The position numbers were made by a program, and so were the translations under genes. Of a stretch of DNA of 47,605 bases, positions 17,545 to 26,898 are shown in pieces. Source of the stretch: a virus; the IMG/VR virus record IMGVR_UViG_3300035670_000352, positions 1 to 47,605 of that record. One strand, 5' to 3'. Under the pieces are notes generated by a model. That model was given only the letters and a program-made list of their open reading frames with translations, was not told where the DNA came from and did no database searches. Each line of letters starts with the position of its first letter. The first letter of the stretch is position 1.

Positions 17545-20500
17545 ATGGCAAAACAAGTCAAACTTGATTTATCCCAATTTAAAGCATCTGGTGTTTACAC
17601 TTTAGAATTTGATGCTAGTGAGAACATTATTATTAACCCTTCCACGATCAGATTGGTCGTAGGTTATTCTAGCGTTGGACCTTTCAATACACCAGTTTAT
17701 TGTCCGGATATTACGACTTTCCAATCAGTATTTGGAGGAATAGAAAGAACTATGGAAAAGAAAGGATCTTTCTTTCATAGATCTTGCTTAGTGTGTCTAC
17801 AAAGTGGACCTATATTTGCTCTAAACTTAAGACTTTTAAATAATACTGTAGACGAAAACGGTGATCCTGATTATGCTGCAGGTGCCGATGTAGCTAGATA
17901 TAGAGCTTTCTCTATGGATACAGAGGAACAAAACGGTGCTAATGCTACTGGGGGATATTCAGATCCTTTAACAAAACAGGATAAATTATTGTCTTCTTAC
18001 TACAACAAAGAGAAGTTTTGGTTCCCAGATACAACTTATTTGTTAGCTACAGAGGACACTTCAGGAGCTCAACCAGATTCAAGAAAACTATTTAGCCTTG
18101 TTAATCTTGGACAAAATCCTGTAAGTATCATAGTAAGAAAATCGTTGGATTCTAGATTTCCTTTAAGAGGATTCGACATTACAGCTAGAGAATATTTTGG
18201 ACCTGATAACGTTCCTTCATATATGAATCAATATGATTATCTTTCGGATTGGTTTATTGATGTGATTGCAATAAATGGAAATTGGACTGATTATCAAGCT
18301 CTTTCTAATGATCCAGTTTATAGCCAGTACTTTACTTCTAAAGGATTTATAAAGTCACAAATAGATAATTTCTTAGCTCTTGATGGTGTTAATATTGCAC
18401 TAACAGTAACAGGTACTATAATTCCTAACTTTACAGACCAAAACGGTACTTTAAGATACATCCAAACTCTAATCAACAATCAAACACCAACAACAGGTAT
18501 TTTCTGTGCTGTTAACGAAGAAGCTTTAGATGATCTAGTTGATAACTCTTCAGTATTCGACTTAGTTGGTCATCACTTGGTAGATGAAATAGGTTCGGAT
18601 GCAGACATTACATCAGTACCTAAGAATCTTAACTTCTTGTCATATAGTCAAAATCTATTTGCAGACTACACTTATTATAAGAACATTGACGGATCTACGG
18701 GAGGTACTGAGATAGAAGATAACCTTTCGCCATCTAATCCGGGAATGGACATACTACCAGAAACCGGAACTCTCCTTTCTGATACACTATATAATGCAAC
18801 TGGAGATGCTGGTATACCGACAACTCTTTGGGACACCTATAACTCTAGTGCAAGAGACGGAGGGGCTATTTATATAGACACATTATTTACATCTACTTCC
18901 CTACACGACGACCAAATAACAACATTAGACGACTTTGTCTCAGTTTCGAGTACAGCTCCTGCAGATAGATGGGTATTAGGTAAAGTAACTTCAAACTTAC
19001 CAACACCAGGATATCTTGGATTCTACGAAGGAGATTTAGTTAAATTAAGAATAGTAGAGGCAAAAACAATTACTAATTCAACTTTACCTGTCGGCGTTAG
19101 AACTCAGGTAAGATTGAGATTAAAGCATCCTCTCGTAGGATCTACTTCTTCAACAACTTATGTTGAACCTTACGAAATAACGAATAAGAGTACAGCTGCT
19201 GCCTATCAGATAGGTAATCCAGATTACTTCGATAATGATGACGTTTACTTCTCACCAGACATACCAGTAGGAACTGATTCTTACTTAGCTTACGAAAACT
19301 CAGCGATGTATAGAGACTGGGTTAAAGGAAACATCGGTGATGGTGATATTGACTGGAAAGACGATACTGGATCCTTACTTCAATATTTAAAATTTGAAGT
19401 TAACGTAGATAGAGACGGATACAATATCCTAGTTTGTAGAGCGTATGCAGATGATACGTTCGCAACTCCGGAAGCTATCTCAACTTGGGATACAACTTAC
19501 ATTAGCTCACTTCCGATTGGAACGAACCAAACCACAGGGGAAAGCTTTAACATAGTTTCAACTGCAGGAAACATAAGCGATTATGTTGACATTATTACAC
19601 AGTTACAGCCTAATGTTATTGAGTTATCTACCGCTGTTGCTACATCTTCTGGTATAAAAGTTGGGGATCTGCTTGTATCTACAGATCTTCAGACTTATGA
19701 TAACCCTTTAACTGAAAATCTTCAATCTAGATTAACAAGAGTACTGGAGGTTAAAACGGTAGCTTCTGCAACATCTCCTGGAGTTTACACTGTACAAGTT
19801 AAAACAGAAAGACCAATTAAGCTTTACCCTGGTGTGACAACAAGAGTTTGGAAATTTAAAAACATCCAAGAGTTTGTTAAGTCATTTAACTTTACGTATC
19901 TTCCTGGCGCAGACATTAAAGCAGCTTCTATGCCTAATGGAACAGACACAAGAATGAATGACATCTTAGATGTTCTTACGAATACTAATCTTGCTAGAAC
20001 ATTAGCAGATACTGACGTAATTACATTCCGATACATTGTTGATACATTTGACGGAGGTATACAGCCAAACTGTAAATTCCAGCTTACTAGACTTGCTAAA
20101 AACAGACAAAAATGTTTAGCAATTTGTAACCTACCTTCGATGAAGAAGTTTGCAGAATCCATAGATCCTAGATTTACTTCTGCACCAACTGCAACTGATC
20201 CAGCTCCACTTTTACAAGCTAGATTCATCGCAGATGGAGGTAACTTAAGTCTTAATCCGTCATTTACTTTCTCTTTACCAGATGAAGATCTAGGTGCTAA
20301 ATTCTCAGGATTCTTTGCGCCATTCTTAACAATCAGAGAAAACAATAAGAATTTAGATGTTCCACCTTCAGCTTATGTTTCTAACAATTTTATACGTAAG
20401 TTTATTACAGGCGAACCTTATTCAATCGTAGCTGGTCTTAAGAGAGGTATTATCTCTGCTAGTAACTTAGTAGGATTGGAATATGATTTCGACTTACAAG

Positions 20501-20946
20501 ATAGAGAATACTTAGAGCCATTCGGAGTTAACCCTATCATCCGTAAGAGAGGAGTTGGTATAGTTATCTACGGTAACCAAACAAGCTACCAAAGAACAAA
20601 CTCTGCATTCAACAACTTACACGTAAGAGATTTATTAATTACTGTAGAGAGTGCAATCGAAGAAATCCTTTCTAACTACGTATTTGATTTCAATGAAGAT
20701 AATGTTAGACTTGAAATTAAAACATTAGTAGACAACTACTTAACCGGAGTAAGATCTGTTGGAGGTATCTACAACTATTTGACTATCATGGACTCTTCTA
20801 ATAATACTCCTGCAATAATCGATCAAAACATCGGTATTATCGACGTAATAATCGAACCTGCAAGAGGTATTCATAAGTTCATTAATAGAATGACAGTTAC
20901 TAGAACAGGAGGTATTGCTTCAGGAGGATTCATTCAATTTAGCTAA
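17545..20946 (+). CDS. 18: Tail sheath protein, gp18-like, very long
   Basis: Contractile sheath subunit. The N-terminal GPFNTPVYCPDITTFQSVFG region and the C-terminal half (NPIIRKRGVGIVIYGNQTSY, HVRDLLITVESAIEEIL, IEPARGIHKFINRM) carry the sheath family core. At 1133 residues it is far longer than T4 gp18 (659); the surplus lies in the middle (about residues 230-760), rich in beta strands and Asp/Thr, presumably extra surface domains on the extended tail. It follows the terminase gene and precedes two tail tube genes, as in T4 (17-18-19). The ATG at 17545 is preceded by TATAAATAAAAATTAAAA. Confidence 0.92.
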   Translation: MAKQVKLDLSQFKASGVYTLEFDASENIIINPSTIRLVVGYSSVGPFNTPVYCPDITTFQSVFGGIERTMEKKGSFFHRSCLVCLQSGPIFALNLRLLNNTVDENGDPDYAAGADVARYRAFSMDTEEQNGANATGGYSDPLTKQDKLLSSYYNKEKFWFPDTTYLLATEDTSGAQPDSRKLFSLVNLGQNPVSIIVRKSLDSRFPLRGFDITAREYFGPDNVPSYMNQYDYLSDWFIDVIAINGNWTDYQALSNDPVYSQYFTSKGFIKSQIDNFLALDGVNIALTVTGTIIPNFTDQNGTLRYIQTLINNQTPTTGIFCAVNEEALDDLVDNSSVFDLVGHHLVDEIGSDADITSVPKNLNFLSYSQNLFADYTYYKNIDGSTGGTEIEDNLSPSNPGMDILPETGTLLSDTLYNATGDAGIPTTLWDTYNSSARDGGAIYIDTLFTSTSLHDDQITTLDDFVSVSSTAPADRWVLGKVTSNLPTPGYLGFYEGDLVKLRIVEAKTITNSTLPVGVRTQVRLRLKHPLVGSTSSTTYVEPYEITNKSTAAAYQIGNPDYFDNDDVYFSPDIPVGTDSYLAYENSAMYRDWVKGNIGDGDIDWKDDTGSLLQYLKFEVNVDRDGYNILVCRAYADDTFATPEAISTWDTTYISSLPIGTNQTTGESFNIVSTAGNISDYVDIITQLQPNVIELSTAVATSSGIKVGDLLVSTDLQTYDNPLTENLQSRLTRVLEVKTVASATSPGVYTVQVKTERPIKLYPGVTTRVWKFKNIQEFVKSFNFTYLPGADIKAASMPNGTDTRMNDILDVLTNTNLARTLADTDVITFRYIVDTFDGGIQPNCKFQLTRLAKNRQKCLAICNLPSMKKFAESIDPRFTSAPTATDPAPLLQARFIADGGNLSLNPSFTFSLPDEDLGAKFSGFFAPFLTIRENNKNLDVPPSAYVSNNFIRKFITGEPYSIVAGLKRGIISASNLVGLEYDFDLQDREYLEPFGVNPIIRKRGVGIVIYGNQTSYQRTNSAFNNLHVRDLLITVESAIEEILSNYVFDFNEDNVRLEIKTLVDNYLTGVRSVGGIYNYLTIMDSSNNTPAIIDQNIGIIDVIIEPARGIHKFINRMTVTRTGGIASGGFIQFS

Positions 20947-20990: not shown

Positions 20991-21563
20991 ATGGCAGGAT
21001 TACCACATTATACAAGTTCTAAAGCTTCAGTTAACAAGTTCGAACCTGTTTTCCTCAACCAGTTCGAGGTTATTATTACACCTCCGGCTGCTATTCCAGT
21101 TCAGGCTGGAAATCCAGGAAGTTCTAATATATTATTAGAGCAGGTAACAAACGTTACTGGATTACAGGTAGACCAGAACCCTTCTGAGGTTACTCAACAG
21201 TATAAATTTGCTAAAAGATATTATTCTGGTGCAGCTCCACAAAGAACCGGATTAGATGTTGGTATGGGATTTGAAATCAACCTTAACGAGAATAACTCTA
21301 TGTATGTTTTTAAAACACTTCGTCAGTGGTCGGATTTAATCTACAATCCATTAACAGGAGCTATGGGGCTTAAAAAAGATTACACTGGAAATATATTAAT
21401 CAATGTTTTCAACAAGCAAGGAGATATTTTCAGAAAAATAAATCTTAGAGATTGTTTTCCGATGTCAGCTATACCAGAAATGGCGCTTAACTACACCCAA
21501 ACATCTATTTATAAAATAGATATTACTTGGGCGGTTGATTATTTCGAAGACGTGTTTATATAA
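20991..21563 (+). CDS. 19: Tail tube protein, gp19-like, copy 1
   Basis: 190-residue tube subunit (T4 gp19 is 163). Family features: an N-terminal NQFEVIITPPA strand, QYKFAKRYYSGA, the FEINLNENNSMYVFKTLRQWSDLIYNPLTGAMG signature (here split as FEINLNENN and LRQWSDLIYNPLTGAMG), and C-terminal KIDITWAVDYFEDVF. Rings of it form the inner tail tube through which DNA passes. A second complete copy follows after 12 bases. Confidence 0.92.
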   Translation: MAGLPHYTSSKASVNKFEPVFLNQFEVIITPPAAIPVQAGNPGSSNILLEQVTNVTGLQVDQNPSEVTQQYKFAKRYYSGAAPQRTGLDVGMGFEINLNENNSMYVFKTLRQWSDLIYNPLTGAMGLKKDYTGNILINVFNKQGDIFRKINLRDCFPMSAIPEMALNYTQTSIYKIDITWAVDYFEDVFI

Positions 21564-22206: not shown

Positions 22207-22256
22207 TTTTTTGTTAAAACTTAGAATGTTAAATTAAAATAATATGGACGAAGATT

Positions 22257-22484
22257 GTGAATCAAAAAAGAAGAACAAGAACGGCTTCAATTTGCTTAGT
22301 TTTAGCGACTTTCTTCAATCCCTTCGGATTCGATATCCTTTTTGCAACTATAATGAAATGGACAAATTCCTATTGGCATACAGTAGCAATTTTTTACTCC
22401 CTTTCGGGACTTTTCTTTGGACTTTATTTCTTTTTGTCTTCAAATAAGAAACTAAACAACAAAGAAAAGGTAAAAGAGATATAA
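22257..22484 (+). CDS. Small membrane protein, two predicted transmembrane segments
   Basis: 75 residues from GTG 22257: a basic start (NQKRRTRT), TM1 (ASICLVLATFFNPFGFDILFATI), a WTNSYWHT turn, TM2 (VAIFYSLSGLFFGLYFFLS) and a basic tail. The NPFGFD-WTNSYW-FFGLYFF pattern looks like a genuine protein family. The good A-rich start context, however, belongs to ATG 22244, which opens a different frame (67 codons). Either the GTG is used or the frame is entered in another way. Inner-membrane location inferred; function unknown. Confidence 0.5.
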   Translation: MNQKRRTRTASICLVLATFFNPFGFDILFATIMKWTNSYWHTVAIFYSLSGLFFGLYFFLSSNKKLNNKEKVKEI

Positions 22485-22495
22485 GAAGAAATAGT

Positions 22496-23533
22496 ATGGA
22501 ACATAATATGGACGACGAATTGCTTAATCAGTTGGGCAGAAAAGAAGCGGAATCTAAATTCCAATATGATCAGGATCCAGACGTTGGATCATACACTATA
22601 CCAGATTGGATAAATAATGAAGCTAATCCCGCTCAAAATCAACAATCAGTTCAAAATCAAACAAACAACTTAGGTAAAGTAAACGTTACCAGAACCCCTA
22701 TGGGTCTAGAGAATGACTGGAAAAATATACCAGTTACTAATCTACCATCGAAGGGATTTGGTTATCCTGAAGGGTTTGAGATTGCAATAAAAGCAGCAGG
22801 GGTTAAGGAGATAAGACAATTTTCTACTGTTGACGAGGACGACAGAATAGATCTAGATGATAAATTGAATGCTATTCTTTCTAAGTGTATGAAGATAAGA
22901 TGGAATGGAGGATTTTTGGAATCGTATGATCTTTGGTATGAGGACAGATTTTATATCATAATGTCTATTAGAGATATTACTTTTATAAGAGGGGAAAACA
23001 AAATATTGCTTCCCGTAACTAAAAACTGTACAAAGCCTGACTGCAATGTACCGGATATGTTAGAATTAAGATCTAACCTATTAGATAGCTTTGTGGTTGA
23101 TCCAGAGATTCTTAAAAGATATAGCAGAGAAAGCTATTCATTTAAATTTGTACCAAAAGACGGAAGTCAAGAGATGGATCTTTATATTCCTACAGTTGGA
23201 GTTACTACTATATGTAGAAAAATACTAGCAGACAAAAGAAGAAAGGGAAAAAATTTTGATGAGAGCTTTGCTAAAGTGGCTTCTTTCATAATACCTGACT
23301 GGAGAGGATTAGATGAATCTGTATATGATCAATACGAAAGGGCATCTACAGAATGGACACCACTTCAGTTCTCTATAGCTGATCAAATAACGGAGAAGAT
23401 TAACTTCGCTACCAAATCAAGAATTTATAGTAAATGTGAAAGCTGTGAGGGGGAGGTCACAGCAGATATATCATTTCCCGGAGGGTACAGATCTCTTTTC
23501 GTTATTTCAGATATCTTTAGCCAACTACTTTGA
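22496..23533 (+). CDS. 26: Baseplate hub / tail assembly protein, gp26-like
   Basis: 345 residues. The core matches the T4-type baseplate family: LPSKGFGYPEGFEIAIKAAGVKEIRQFST (seen as LPSKGFGYP and VKEIRQFST), a helical segment with DLDDKLNAILSKCM, LWYEDRFYIIMSIRDITF, and cysteines in NCTKPDCNVPD. The C-terminal part adds KCESCEGEVTADISFPGGYRSLF. T4 gp26 is shorter (208). It ends at CTT TGA inside a frame that continues for 59 codons, so a +1 frameshift product of about 404 residues is likely (see next entry). It starts at ATG 22496; a nearby ATG at 22508 is also possible. Confidence 0.65.
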   Translation: MEHNMDDELLNQLGRKEAESKFQYDQDPDVGSYTIPDWINNEANPAQNQQSVQNQTNNLGKVNVTRTPMGLENDWKNIPVTNLPSKGFGYPEGFEIAIKAAGVKEIRQFSTVDEDDRIDLDDKLNAILSKCMKIRWNGGFLESYDLWYEDRFYIIMSIRDITFIRGENKILLPVTKNCTKPDCNVPDMLELRSNLLDSFVVDPEILKRYSRESYSFKFVPKDGSQEMDLYIPTVGVTTICRKILADKRRKGKNFDESFAKVASFIIPDWRGLDESVYDQYERASTEWTPLQFSIADQITEKINFATKSRIYSKCESCEGEVTADISFPGGYRSLFVISDIFSQLL

Positions 23534-23711
23534 TATTAAGTTTAGGCTGTGGGAAGAATTTAAACTGTCTATAGATACTTTAGAATCTCTGCCCTTCTAC
23601 GAATATCAGCTATTCATAGACAAGCTAAATGAAAAAATAGAAAGGGAGAATAAGAAAAACGAACAAGGAGACTTAGTAGAAGCATTTTCATTTTCAAAGC
23701 CAAAAAGATAA
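23532..23711 (+). CDS. Frameshift-dependent C-terminal extension of the gp26-like protein (gp51-like position)
   Basis: The +1 frame after TGA 23531-23533 encodes 59 residues (DIKFRLWEEF, LESLPFYEYQLFIDKLNEKI) of convincing helical protein. It lacks a usable start: within this frame only GTG codons at 23436 and 23445 precede it, where the reading is a shadow of the upstream gene. The preceding gene ends CTT TGA T, the same CUU UGA used for +1 slippage in RF2 mRNA. In T4 the gene after 26 is 51, a hub assembly factor. Lambda-like phages also make tail chaperones by frameshift, so this may be a functional analogue. Confidence 0.55.
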   Translation, partial: DIKFRLWEEFKLSIDTLESLPFYEYQLFIDKLNEKIERENKKNEQGDLVEAFSFSKPKR

Positions 23712-23725
23712 CTTTTTGGCTTTTT
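23696..23725 (+). terminator. Rho-independent terminator with the stop codon in its loop
   Basis: AAAGCCAAAAAG (23696-23707), loop ATAA, CTTTTTGGCTTT (23712-23723), then TT. The TAA of the frameshift extension (23709-23711) is in the loop, which indicates that this frame is a real, terminated coding unit. Confidence 0.85.
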
Positions 23726-23747: not shown

Positions 23748-25523
23748 TTGGCAGGAGAAACAGGAACAGCTGGAGCAACAGGAGCAACAGGAACAGCTGG
23801 AGCAACAGGATCGGGATTCCCTATTTTTAAATCCGAGGGGGGAGCTTTTGATAGAGCCAAATTTACACAGGCGATAAGAAACAACGCAGTTGGTACAATT
23901 ACGGAAGAAACATTCGAAGCTATGAAAGCTGCCGACAGTGTAGCAAAAGCAGCTAACATATTCTACGGCGAATCTTTCGATAAAAACATAAAAGAATTAG
24001 CACCTGAATTAGACCCTAAATCCGTTTATTATAGGGAAGCTTATGCAGATGTTGCATCCGATAGGAACAGGATACAAAAAAGACTTGACAAGGGTGAAGC
24101 GATAGACGGCAAAGAGATATTTGAAATGTCCAAAGGCGCTGCTATAAACAAAATAGAAAATGCAAAAATCCTAAAGACTGGTAAAGCAACAGAGATAATA
24201 GAAAATATAGGATATAGGGACATAAAAGATTTCGAGAATTTCGATGCGGTCAAGGAAGATTTTGATTCAAAAGTAACTGAGGAGAAATTTAAGTTCGAAC
24301 CTTTAGTAGATAGATTTTTAGATGTTCTTAGCTACTTTAATGAGGATAGACCGATGGATGCTAGAACAGCATCATTAATATACTCCCCAGAAAACAATGC
24401 TATAATTTCAGCTCTCTCTAAAATATTAGAAGGCGAAGGATTTAACAGTGAGAGTATTGTAAACATGTCTAAAAAATATGAGGATAATCTAAACAAACTC
24501 ATACAGAAATCTAAAGGGGGTACTGTCGAGGATATAAGAACGATACTGCCTGGTACTACTGGAGCTACTGGAGCTACTGGAGCTACTACAGAACAAAAGC
24601 TGGAGGAAAAGAAATCTGCATCCGAAACAGGTGCAACCGGACCAGCTACAACAGAAACCCCTCCCAGTGCAACTGGTGCAACTGGTGCTGTGTCACCAGT
24701 AGAAGGAGTTTCTACCACTACACCAAAACAAGAAGTGTCTGGTACTGGACCTACTGCTACTACAAGTGCTGAGAATTTAACAGAGAAGGGAACTACCGGA
24801 ACTACTGGAACTACTGGAACTACTGGAGCAGGAACCACAGGAAAGATAGAGGAAGCTAAAACTAATACAGGTGAAAATAAAGGGGCAACAGCAGGTGGAG
24901 GATCGGCAGAACTTAGTCAATCGGCTAAGGGAATACTAGAAATGTTAGGGATAAAAGCACCCGCGTCTAAGGAGGGAGGGGAGGAAGGAAAAGATAAAGG
25001 AGCAACAGGGGAAGCTTCTGGTAGTTCAAAGGCAGACAAAATACTAAGCGAATTAGGAATTACTAAGTCTAAGGGAGCAGAGGGAGGAGTAAAAACTGAT
25101 AATAAACCTAAAGCGGAAAATAAAGAAACTAAGTTAGAGGAAAAAATTTCAGGAGATATGGACAAAAAACCCGAAACTTCTGCGGTTAATACGCCTATAA
25201 AAGAAACAGTAACACAAAATTTATCTAGTGTAACTACACCAAGTACAGAAACAAAAGGAGAAAACAAAGAAGAGATAAAAGCAACACCAACGACAACTAC
25301 CGAAAATAAAACCGAGGATATAAAAAGCGAAACATCAAGTGAAGTAAAAACTGCAGAATCTCAACAAAAAGAATCTGAAGATAAAACAAAAAAAGAGGAT
25401 CAGGATAAAATGAATAAAGAACTGGGAGACAACATGAAATCTATGGTATCATTACTAACTCAGCTAAATAATACTTTAAAAAATCCTCTAATGGTTATAT
25501 CTAACGATAAAAAATTCCATTAG
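23748..25523 (+). CDS. Collagen-like, low-complexity structural protein
   Basis: 591 residues from TTG 23748; this start is chosen because TATAAATAAAAATTATT-TTG GCA repeats the context of other structural genes (ATG GCA) and no closer ATG exists. Order: collagen-like GETGTAGATGATG (1-25), a helical globular part (about 30-260), a long Gly/Thr/Glu-rich disordered region with GATGATGATT, GTTGTTGTTG and Lys/Glu segments, and a short C-terminal helix (KSMVSLLTQLNNTLKN). The length is close to T4 gp29 (590), but no tape-measure similarity is evident. Probably a virion or baseplate component; function unknown. Confidence 0.65.
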   Translation: MAGETGTAGATGATGTAGATGSGFPIFKSEGGAFDRAKFTQAIRNNAVGTITEETFEAMKAADSVAKAANIFYGESFDKNIKELAPELDPKSVYYREAYADVASDRNRIQKRLDKGEAIDGKEIFEMSKGAAINKIENAKILKTGKATEIIENIGYRDIKDFENFDAVKEDFDSKVTEEKFKFEPLVDRFLDVLSYFNEDRPMDARTASLIYSPENNAIISALSKILEGEGFNSESIVNMSKKYEDNLNKLIQKSKGGTVEDIRTILPGTTGATGATGATTEQKLEEKKSASETGATGPATTETPPSATGATGAVSPVEGVSTTTPKQEVSGTGPTATTSAENLTEKGTTGTTGTTGTTGAGTTGKIEEAKTNTGENKGATAGGGSAELSQSAKGILEMLGIKAPASKEGGEEGKDKGATGEASGSSKADKILSELGITKSKGAEGGVKTDNKPKAENKETKLEEKISGDMDKKPETSAVNTPIKETVTQNLSSVTTPSTETKGENKEEIKATPTTTTENKTEDIKSETSSEVKTAESQQKESEDKTKKEDQDKMNKELGDNMKSMVSLLTQLNNTLKNPLMVISNDKKFH

Positions 25524-25584: not shown

Positions 25585-25860
25585 ATGAGTAAAAATTATG
25601 AAATTACAAAGGAGCTTAGATCAACACTGGTCGAGTTCTTGAATGCCTATGGAGGCTACAGAGAATGTTTGGAAATTTTGGAAAATGAGGGAAAAGAAAA
25701 TTTTACAGAGGACGAAGTAAATCAAGTACTTAATCTTCTTGGGATATTTAGACTTATGGACACTTTCCATATTGTAGAGAGATTTAAAATAGAAGTTACA
25801 CCTCTTAAATCCCAAGAGTCTGATGAGCAATCAGAGCCTACCTCAGCACAAGCAGAATAA
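25585..25860 (+). CDS. Small acidic protein of unknown function
   Basis: 91 residues, mostly helical: a YEITKELRSTLVEFLNAYGGYRECLEIL helix pair (seen as LRSTLVEFL and YRECLEILE), then FTEDEVNQVLNLLGIFRL and a Ser/Glu/Gln-rich tail. The 3' end overlaps the deaminase gene by 38 bases in another frame. Not recognised. A host-type TATATTTG box lies upstream, suggesting early expression. Confidence 0.6.
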   Translation: MSKNYEITKELRSTLVEFLNAYGGYRECLEILENEGKENFTEDEVNQVLNLLGIFRLMDTFHIVERFKIEVTPLKSQESDEQSEPTSAQAE

Positions 25861-26260
25861 AATCGACTCACTCTATTTAAGGATGGCCAATGTTTGGTCG
25901 GAGAACTCTCACTGTAAAAGGAATAAGGTCGGGTGCTTGATAGTAAAGGACAGACAAATAATATCAGACGGATATAACGGAACACCTTCTGGATTTTCTA
26001 ATGAATGTGAAGACTGCAATAACAACACGCTTCCTACTGTGTTACATGCAGAAGCCAACGCCATAACTAAAATAGCTAAGAGTACAAACAGCGCAGAGGG
26101 GTCAACTCTCTACGTGACTCTGTCTCCTTGTTTTGATTGCGCTAAGCTAATCATACAAGCTGGGATCAAAAGAATTGTTTATTCTGAAACATACAGAAAT
26201 ACAGATTCTTTTAAACTTTTTGAGGAAGCAGGTATAGAAATAAAGAAAATAAGCATTTAA
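25823..26260 (+). CDS. cd: dCMP deaminase
   Basis: Zinc-dependent deaminase converting dCMP to dUMP for dTMP synthesis. HAEANAI (H75, E77) and SPCFDCAK (C103, C106) give the zinc site and the catalytic Glu; NGTPSGF (52-58) is the substrate-binding motif of the dCMP branch, and additional Cys residues (ECEDC) suggest a second structural zinc as in T4. 145 residues against 193 in T4. Together with the enzyme at 10-747 it controls the fate of dCMP. The ATG at 25823 lies inside the previous gene; a later start would cut off the first helix. Confidence 0.9.
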   Translation: MSNQSLPQHKQNKIDSLYLRMANVWSENSHCKRNKVGCLIVKDRQIISDGYNGTPSGFSNECEDCNNNTLPTVLHAEANAITKIAKSTNSAEGSTLYVTLSPCFDCAKLIIQAGIKRIVYSETYRNTDSFKLFEEAGIEIKKISI

Positions 26261-26274
26261 AAAAATAAGGTAAT

Positions 26275-26898
26275 ATGGCAGTAAAGAACATTCAAGAATT
26301 GGCAGAAAGTTTTATGAGGACGTCTTCGGAGAAAGATTTTGTTGAACTATATAAAAGAATTAAACCTGGACTACTAAATCATTGTAAGTCTATATTAATA
26401 GAGCAGGAAGCTGCAGAGGATGCAGTCTCTAACACTATGGCTAAAATATGGACTAAAATATCTCAGTACGATCCATCAAGAGGAAATTTTTCTACATGGG
26501 TATACAACATTGCAAGAAATGAATCTCTAGGGATTAAAAAGAATGAGGACAGATATTTACCAATGATACACGAAGTGGTAAGGAGTAATGACGAATCCGA
26601 AGATTCTTCATATCCAACAATAAGTTCGTCCCCGGTAACACTAGAAGCTGAATTTGATTACATCAGCACAGAAAATGACGAGATGGAAAATTTATACGAT
26701 AACGTCATAGAGAGAATGAAGGATCTACCTGAAATCTACAAAGATATTCTATTTGATCGCGAAATCTTAAGGATGAAATACCAGGAGATTGCAGACAAAT
26801 ATGGTATGAAGAAAAGAGCTATTGCAACAAGAATTAGAAGAGCAAGATTAAAAGTTAGGGAGATGTTTCCGGGTGTTAATTTAACTTTTAATGATTGA
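26275..26898 (+). CDS. ECF-like sigma factor (sigma-70 family regions 2 and 4)
   Basis: 207 residues. Region 2 spans about 18-90 (EQEAAEDAVSNTMAKIWTKI, QYDPSRGNFSTWVYNIARNE), the typical core-binding and -10 recognition helices. An acidic linker (about 100-140) follows, then region 4 (about 145-200) with DILFDREILRMKYQEIADKYG and the helix-turn-helix MKKRAIATRIRRARLKVREM. It would direct RNA polymerase to a set of phage promoters. It is a different protein from the gp55-like factor at 33678, so this phage carries two sigma-type proteins. Family assignment firm, promoter class unknown. Confidence 0.85.
   Translation: MAVKNIQELAESFMRTSSEKDFVELYKRIKPGLLNHCKSILIEQEAAEDAVSNTMAKIWTKISQYDPSRGNFSTWVYNIARNESLGIKKNEDRYLPMIHEVVRSNDESEDSSYPTISSSPVTLEAEFDYISTENDEMENLYDNVIERMKDLPEIYKDILFDREILRMKYQEIADKYGMKKRAIATRIRRARLKVREMFPGVNLTFND

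Follow-up and report, generated by a model that had tools for sequence, protein, structure and literature searches.

The locus at positions 22496–23711 of the window (the whole stretch of DNA analysed, a virus fragment of 47.6 kb) is probably a single gene that encodes a tail assembly chaperone of T4 type (gp26/gp51), whose two forms would be produced by a programmed frameshift, as comparison of its reading frames with those of its relatives suggests. A frameshift joining a gp26-like protein and a gp51-like tail, in parallel to the G/GT chaperones of lambda but in a T4-type phage, had already been put forward in a sequence-only reading of the same DNA, and this much of it still seems to hold; the place of the shift does not, as the likely site lies some 33 bases upstream of the CTT TGA at 23528–23533 that had been taken for the junction. 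The features of the locus are as follows, all on the plus strand, with their grounds in brackets.

23480–23485 (+): GGAGGG, a possible SD-like upstream stimulator (an inference; cyanophages have GGAGGG before T_TTT_TTC)
22496–23533 (+): 0-frame ORF, gp26-like putative tail assembly chaperone, short form of 345 aa, stop TGA at 23531–23533 (predicted fold and the PF12322/phrog_150 matches of relatives)
23492–23500 (+): proposed shift site TCT CTT TTC, with the invariant CTTTTC at 23495–23500 (constraint switch, NTT TTY conservation, codon enrichment)
23499–23530 (+): dual-coding overlap, VISDIFSQLL in frame 0 and SLFQISLANYF in the +1 frame (substitution pattern)
23499–23711 (+): +1-frame gp51-like C-terminal part, 70 codons plus TAA at 23709–23711 (profile alignment with cyanophage gp51, phrog_634 matches in relatives)
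23528–23533 (+): CTT TGA, read as an ordinary 0-frame terminator and a by-product of +1-frame F-D codons (conservation and frame of constraint)
23696–23723 (+): strong terminator-like hairpin with the TAA of the tail in its loop (z −4.3)

The locus and the family of its two parts

The 345-codon ORF ends CTA CTT TGA T, after which the +1 frame stays open for 59 codons, from GAT to the TAA at 23709–23711; the sequence-only reading had described both correctly, the position of this TAA in a terminator loop included. A tail sheath gene (17545–20946) and two tube-like genes (at 20991 and 21576) lie directly upstream, which puts the chaperone gene in the usual position of a tail assembly chaperone. 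The stretch from the second tube-like gene to the chaperone gene holds two small overlapping ORFs (22244–22484). Directly 3' of the terminator hairpin, the next gene (23748–25523) encodes a protein of 591 residues that starts with TTG and contains collagen-like GAT/GTT repeats, for which no confident family match, tape measure included, was found. At 25823–26898, a deoxycytidylate-deaminase-like protein (HAEAN, PCFDCAK) and, behind it, a sigma-factor-like one could be recognized by reading the sequence. Scanning the window for Rfam families and tRNAs returned no matches, and neither did a plasmid search.

The N-terminal part encoded in the window gave no Pfam match itself; its homologue in the relative L152, with which it falls into one alignment, matches PF12322 T4_baseplate (E 1.9e-9, 38.0 bits vs a curated cutoff of 24.5) and phrog_150 (E 6.9e-11), a family that T4 gp26 and the longer T4 gp51 both match. 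The fold of the N-part model (pLDDT 77) matches T4-type baseplate hub/gp26 proteins among viral structures (E about 1e-8); a PDB fold search with this model gave no significant match, and among solved structures a second look ranked the HK97 tail assembly chaperone 2ob9 first, which is only weakly similar (Z 3.2, 90 aligned, 4.9 Å). As the whole N-part profile matches T4/cyanophage gp26 weakly (E 0.018), it is the hmmscan and fold results that place it in the gp26 family. A gapless alignment of 53 columns, from the first residue on, links the tail profile to cyanophage gp51 (E 7.3e-10), and phrog_634, which corresponds to the gp51 C-terminus, matches the tails of L187 (E 4.4e-5) and L147 (E 1.6e-4), the value for the window tail alone being 0.17. 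Judged by homology and predicted fold, the N-part is gp26-like and the C-part gp51-like, as expected of the T4-type gp26/gp51 chaperone family.

Conservation of the layout and the frame under constraint

Relatives of the protein are encoded at 54 IMG/VR loci (68–99% identical), and every one of these that reaches past the junction keeps the 59-codon +1 continuation, with CTT TGA, CTT TAA or TTT TGA as the context of the 0-frame stop. Wider scans extended the comparison to 25 lineages that share less than 60% identity, among them Lak phages, Tenacibaculum PTm1, Chryseobacterium MA9V-1, Flavobacterium MaF61 and Sphingomonas PAU; in 53/53 further distinct loci, the frame of the tail is +1 with respect to the first ORF, and a search of 53 loci for a natural in-frame fusion of both parts found none. 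The same frame arrangement across relatives means that the layout is not a sequencing accident, which disposes of the indel that the sequence-only reading had named as a possible refutation. In Lak phages and their relatives (L056, L057, L074, L220), the gp51-like part carries an insertion of ~30–50 residues and the site reads ATA/TTA TTC; in Lak, the frame stays open only if TAG is read as an amino acid.

The point at which the coding constraint passes from one frame to the other was located by counting synonymous and nonsynonymous codon differences per frame. Among 22 representatives of the window clade, the −45 to −31 block, counted from the stop, shows 93 synonymous and 0 nonsynonymous differences in frame 0, and the block −30 to −16 shows 0/168 in frame 0 and 157/0 in the +1 frame. 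A second comparison, of 11 lineages under 60% identity, gave 135/193 in frame 0 vs 16/317 in the +1 frame upstream of the site, and 19/208 vs 136/79, respectively, within the overlap, the switch falling at CTT TTC (window position 23495–23500). Amino-acid constraint on the +1 frame begins at 23499 (TCG), ~30 nt before the 0-frame stop, and not at 23532; its I-S-L, for example, is kept via ATA TCT CTG, ATC TCG CTG, ATT TCA CTG or ATA TCT TTA, with frame 0 varying. Taken by itself, the L058 clade has an overlap conserved in both frames and a switch point that is less sharp, and in L149/L150 frame 0 is apparently constrained as far as the stop.

These counts bear directly on the version of the sequence-only reading, which places a +1 shift on the CTT TGA of the 0-frame stop, and make it highly improbable. 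CUU UGA does coincide with the shift site of RF2, and the whole window clade has CTT TGA, CTT TAA or TTT TGA there; however, the +1 frame is constrained and frame 0 is not from 30 nt before the stop, and an RF2-type shift there would leave the conserved +1-frame S-L-F-Q-I-S-L-x-N-[FY]-F before the stop unexplained. The string is a consequence of the conserved +1 codons TTT GAT (F-D), with CTT TAA resulting from TTT AAG or TTT AAT elsewhere, and most other lineages have TAA at the 0-frame stop, from +1 F-K codons. Conservation of CTTTGA among relatives, proposed earlier as a check, is seen within the window clade if CTT TAA and TTT TGA are counted with it, and is lost beyond it, where lineages with the non-slippery ends GAA TAA, TCT TAA, GAG TAA and TTA TAA still keep the +1 tail. 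A recoded stop was rejected as well, given that the frame shifts by one base and that the stop may be TGA or TAA.

A version with no frameshift at all, in which coupled or non-AUG initiation would yield the tail as a gp51 protein of its own, is also improbable. The window clade has no conserved ATG/GTG/TTG near the start of the tail; in L041, the +1 frame is closed by a stop 21 codons ahead of the 0-frame stop and offers no ATG/GTG/TTG beyond it, and many lineages (L055 among them) have a +1 stop 9 codons upstream of CTT TTC. Upstream own initiation is excluded in L041 and L055, which agrees with the earlier remark that the continuation has no credible start of its own. The +1 constraint, moreover, begins immediately at TCG 23499, and the corresponding +1 codon varies by lineage (TTA, TTG, CTG, CTA, TCA or TGC). 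A start at the +1-frame GTGs found 28–31 codons before the stop was considered and rejected, as there is no +1 constraint there and the stop in L041 comes after them. Separate initiation is favoured by the tail gene of L147, which starts with ATG, by the cyanophage gp51, which has its own ATG directly after gp26, and by a conserved +1-frame ATG shortly after the site in the L058 clade, where a second start is possible. Separate ATG genes, which the sequence-only reading would have counted against a frameshift, do exist in L147 and the cyanophages but not in the window clade, for which these phages seem to be informative outgroups rather than a refutation. The separate tail gene of L147 (L147:2339-2650) begins MKAVAGISVDKKSILSMFKINLENFF...

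The proposed shift site and the probable direction of slippage

Of 153 distinct sequences, 138 have NTT TTY at the junction (CTT TTC in 93, ATT TTC in 41, ATT TTT in 2, GTT TTC and TTT TTC in 1 each), as do 17 of the 23 lineages without a separate tail gene. TTC stands at the site in 21/23, vs a background of 30% in the codon usage of the same genes, and CTT accounts for 11/14 of Leu, vs 25%, so that both are enriched; ATT shows no enrichment over codon usage. As the +1-frame Ser also demands TTC, its enrichment alone is no proof of slippage. Six lineages keep the arrangement without NTT TTY (the Lak lineages L056/L220 with ATA TTC, L074/L068 with TTA TTC, L149 with CTG TTC and L151 with ATC TTT), and re-pairing cannot fully account for them. 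CTT TTC is also present in frame elsewhere in the window ORFs, so sequence context must matter. L147 and L223 have TTA TTT at the site, unlike the other lineages; in L223 (near 2380–2470), a CTT TTT just before the stop is perhaps a relocated shift site, a separate tail gene also being possible.

The search for an upstream stimulator that the sequence-only reading had called for yielded one candidate, the GGAGGG at 23480–23485, which may act in an SD-like manner as in cyanophages; it is largely explained by Gly-Gly codons and is absent from some lineages. Folding of the RNA just downstream of the site was no better than that of shuffled sequences (z −0.6), and no covariation indicative of a conserved downstream structure was found.

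We infer slippage itself, its direction, its efficiency and the chaperone role from the sequence comparisons. Most ribosomes would stay in frame 0 and stop at TGA 23531, releasing the 345-residue short form in the role of lambda gpG, and a fraction would slip at TCT CTT TTC into the frame ending at 23711, giving a long form of about 405 aa with the 70-residue gp51-like C-terminus in the role of gpGT. Given this site, the slip is rather likely to be −2: the Phe-tRNA would leave UUC and re-pair with UUU two bases back, the next codon being TCG and the product ...GGYRSLF/SLFQISLANYFDIKF... (the slash marks the slip); the corresponding −2 junctions would read HIF/SLIR in PTm1 and SLF/SLFQVDLQ in MaF61. 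Such re-pairing is possible on NUUUUC, i.e., in the window and in 138/153 sequences, and impossible in the six divergent lineages. NTT may begin with any base (C, A, G or T), a freedom that favours Phe moving from UUC to UUU over a +1 slip on AUU/GUU, and the −2 product scores slightly higher in alignment with T4 gp51 (26.9 vs 24.0, a small difference). The preference for −2 derives from this re-pairing logic and the small score difference, along with the homologous cyanophage −1 site, where the same UUC to UUU re-pairing applies.

A +1 slip is, given the site, possible if doubtful, and as an explanation of the locus as a whole it is rather unlikely. Here, Leu-tRNA would move from CUU to UUU at 23495, giving a long form ...GYRSL/SLFQI... 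one residue shorter than that of −2. The move from CTT to TTT is a P-site re-pairing of the RF2 type, and CTT is the commonest site codon (93/153) as well as an enriched one; yet in the ATT TTC (41), ATT TTT (2) and GTT TTC (1) sequences the first base would mismatch on re-pairing to UUU, the A site would hold an ordinary UUC, neither a stop nor obviously slow, the invariant 0-frame F335 would enter the long form under −2 only, and T4 gp51 aligns less well with the +1 product. An alignment of T4 gp51 IFTFYQI with LF/SLFQI was rejected, as the profile alignment places DVFKLL there.

Comparison with known systems and what the site may mean

Chaperone frameshifts of the lambda G/GT type run −1 in lambda, −2 in Mu and +1 in others, and −2 access to the +1 frame, which yields one residue more than +1, is known from Mu and arteriviruses (reviewed in PMC5009743). 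The locus resembles lambda G/GT in having tube then chaperone genes, a short and a putative frameshift-extended form with the shift near the 3' end of the first frame, and (in the window clade) a conserved second frame that overlaps the first and has no start of its own. It differs in belonging to a T4-type family and in the proposed use of a +1-equivalent frame at NTT TTC without a classical XXXYYYZ heptamer. The −2/−1 site of arterivirus nsp2TF, G_GUU_UUU, allows −2 re-pairing of Phe tRNA on a U run. Such Phe re-pairing may be shared with the window, although gene and system are unrelated, and the arterivirus site requires a protein complex as its stimulator (PMC7939443).

T4 gp26 and gp51 have the same domains, but as two separate, oppositely oriented genes instead of one frameshift-joined locus, and T4-like phages have been reported to make their tail assembly chaperones otherwise than by frameshifting (Vladimirov, Gautam and Davidson 2022, Virology 566:9, as cited in PMC12846349). 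In the cyanophages S-PM2, Sf-CH11 and S-H9-2 (L233/L234/L235), gp26 ends TCT TTT TTC GCA/GGA TAA GC ATG, where T_TTT_TTC, in the homologous position, is a −1 heptamer of the classical kind and gp51 lies in the −1 frame. This site shares with the one proposed here its T-richness, the final TTC, the upstream GGAGGG and the re-pairing from UUC to UUU; unlike in the window, the frame of gp51 is −1 and gp51 has, in addition, an ATG of its own. The cyanophage heptamer would fuse gp26 to gp51, which are annotated as two genes only, and cyanophage gp51 has been called truncated by about 200 N-terminal residues in published alignments (PMC3037559). No earlier report of the exact window shift site was found in open-licence papers.

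There seems to be an even chance that a UCU_CUU_UUC −2 frameshift serves the chaperones of a very large T4-type group, many isolates of which infect Bacteroidota, as the counterpart of the cyanophage −1 U_UUU_UUC on the same codons, with the direction having changed at a homologous site and T4 having dropped frameshifting for two genes. The long forms would then be missing from current annotations, PTm1, MA9V-1, MaF61 and PAU carrying two hypothetical or unnamed proteins instead. T4-type chaperones outside the family of T4 itself are indicated to use a frameshift, probably of the −2 kind, which has rarely been described, and a single gene family would thereby offer three solutions (the putative −2 site here, the −1 site of cyanophages and the separate genes of T4), making a change of shift direction open to study at one homologous site.
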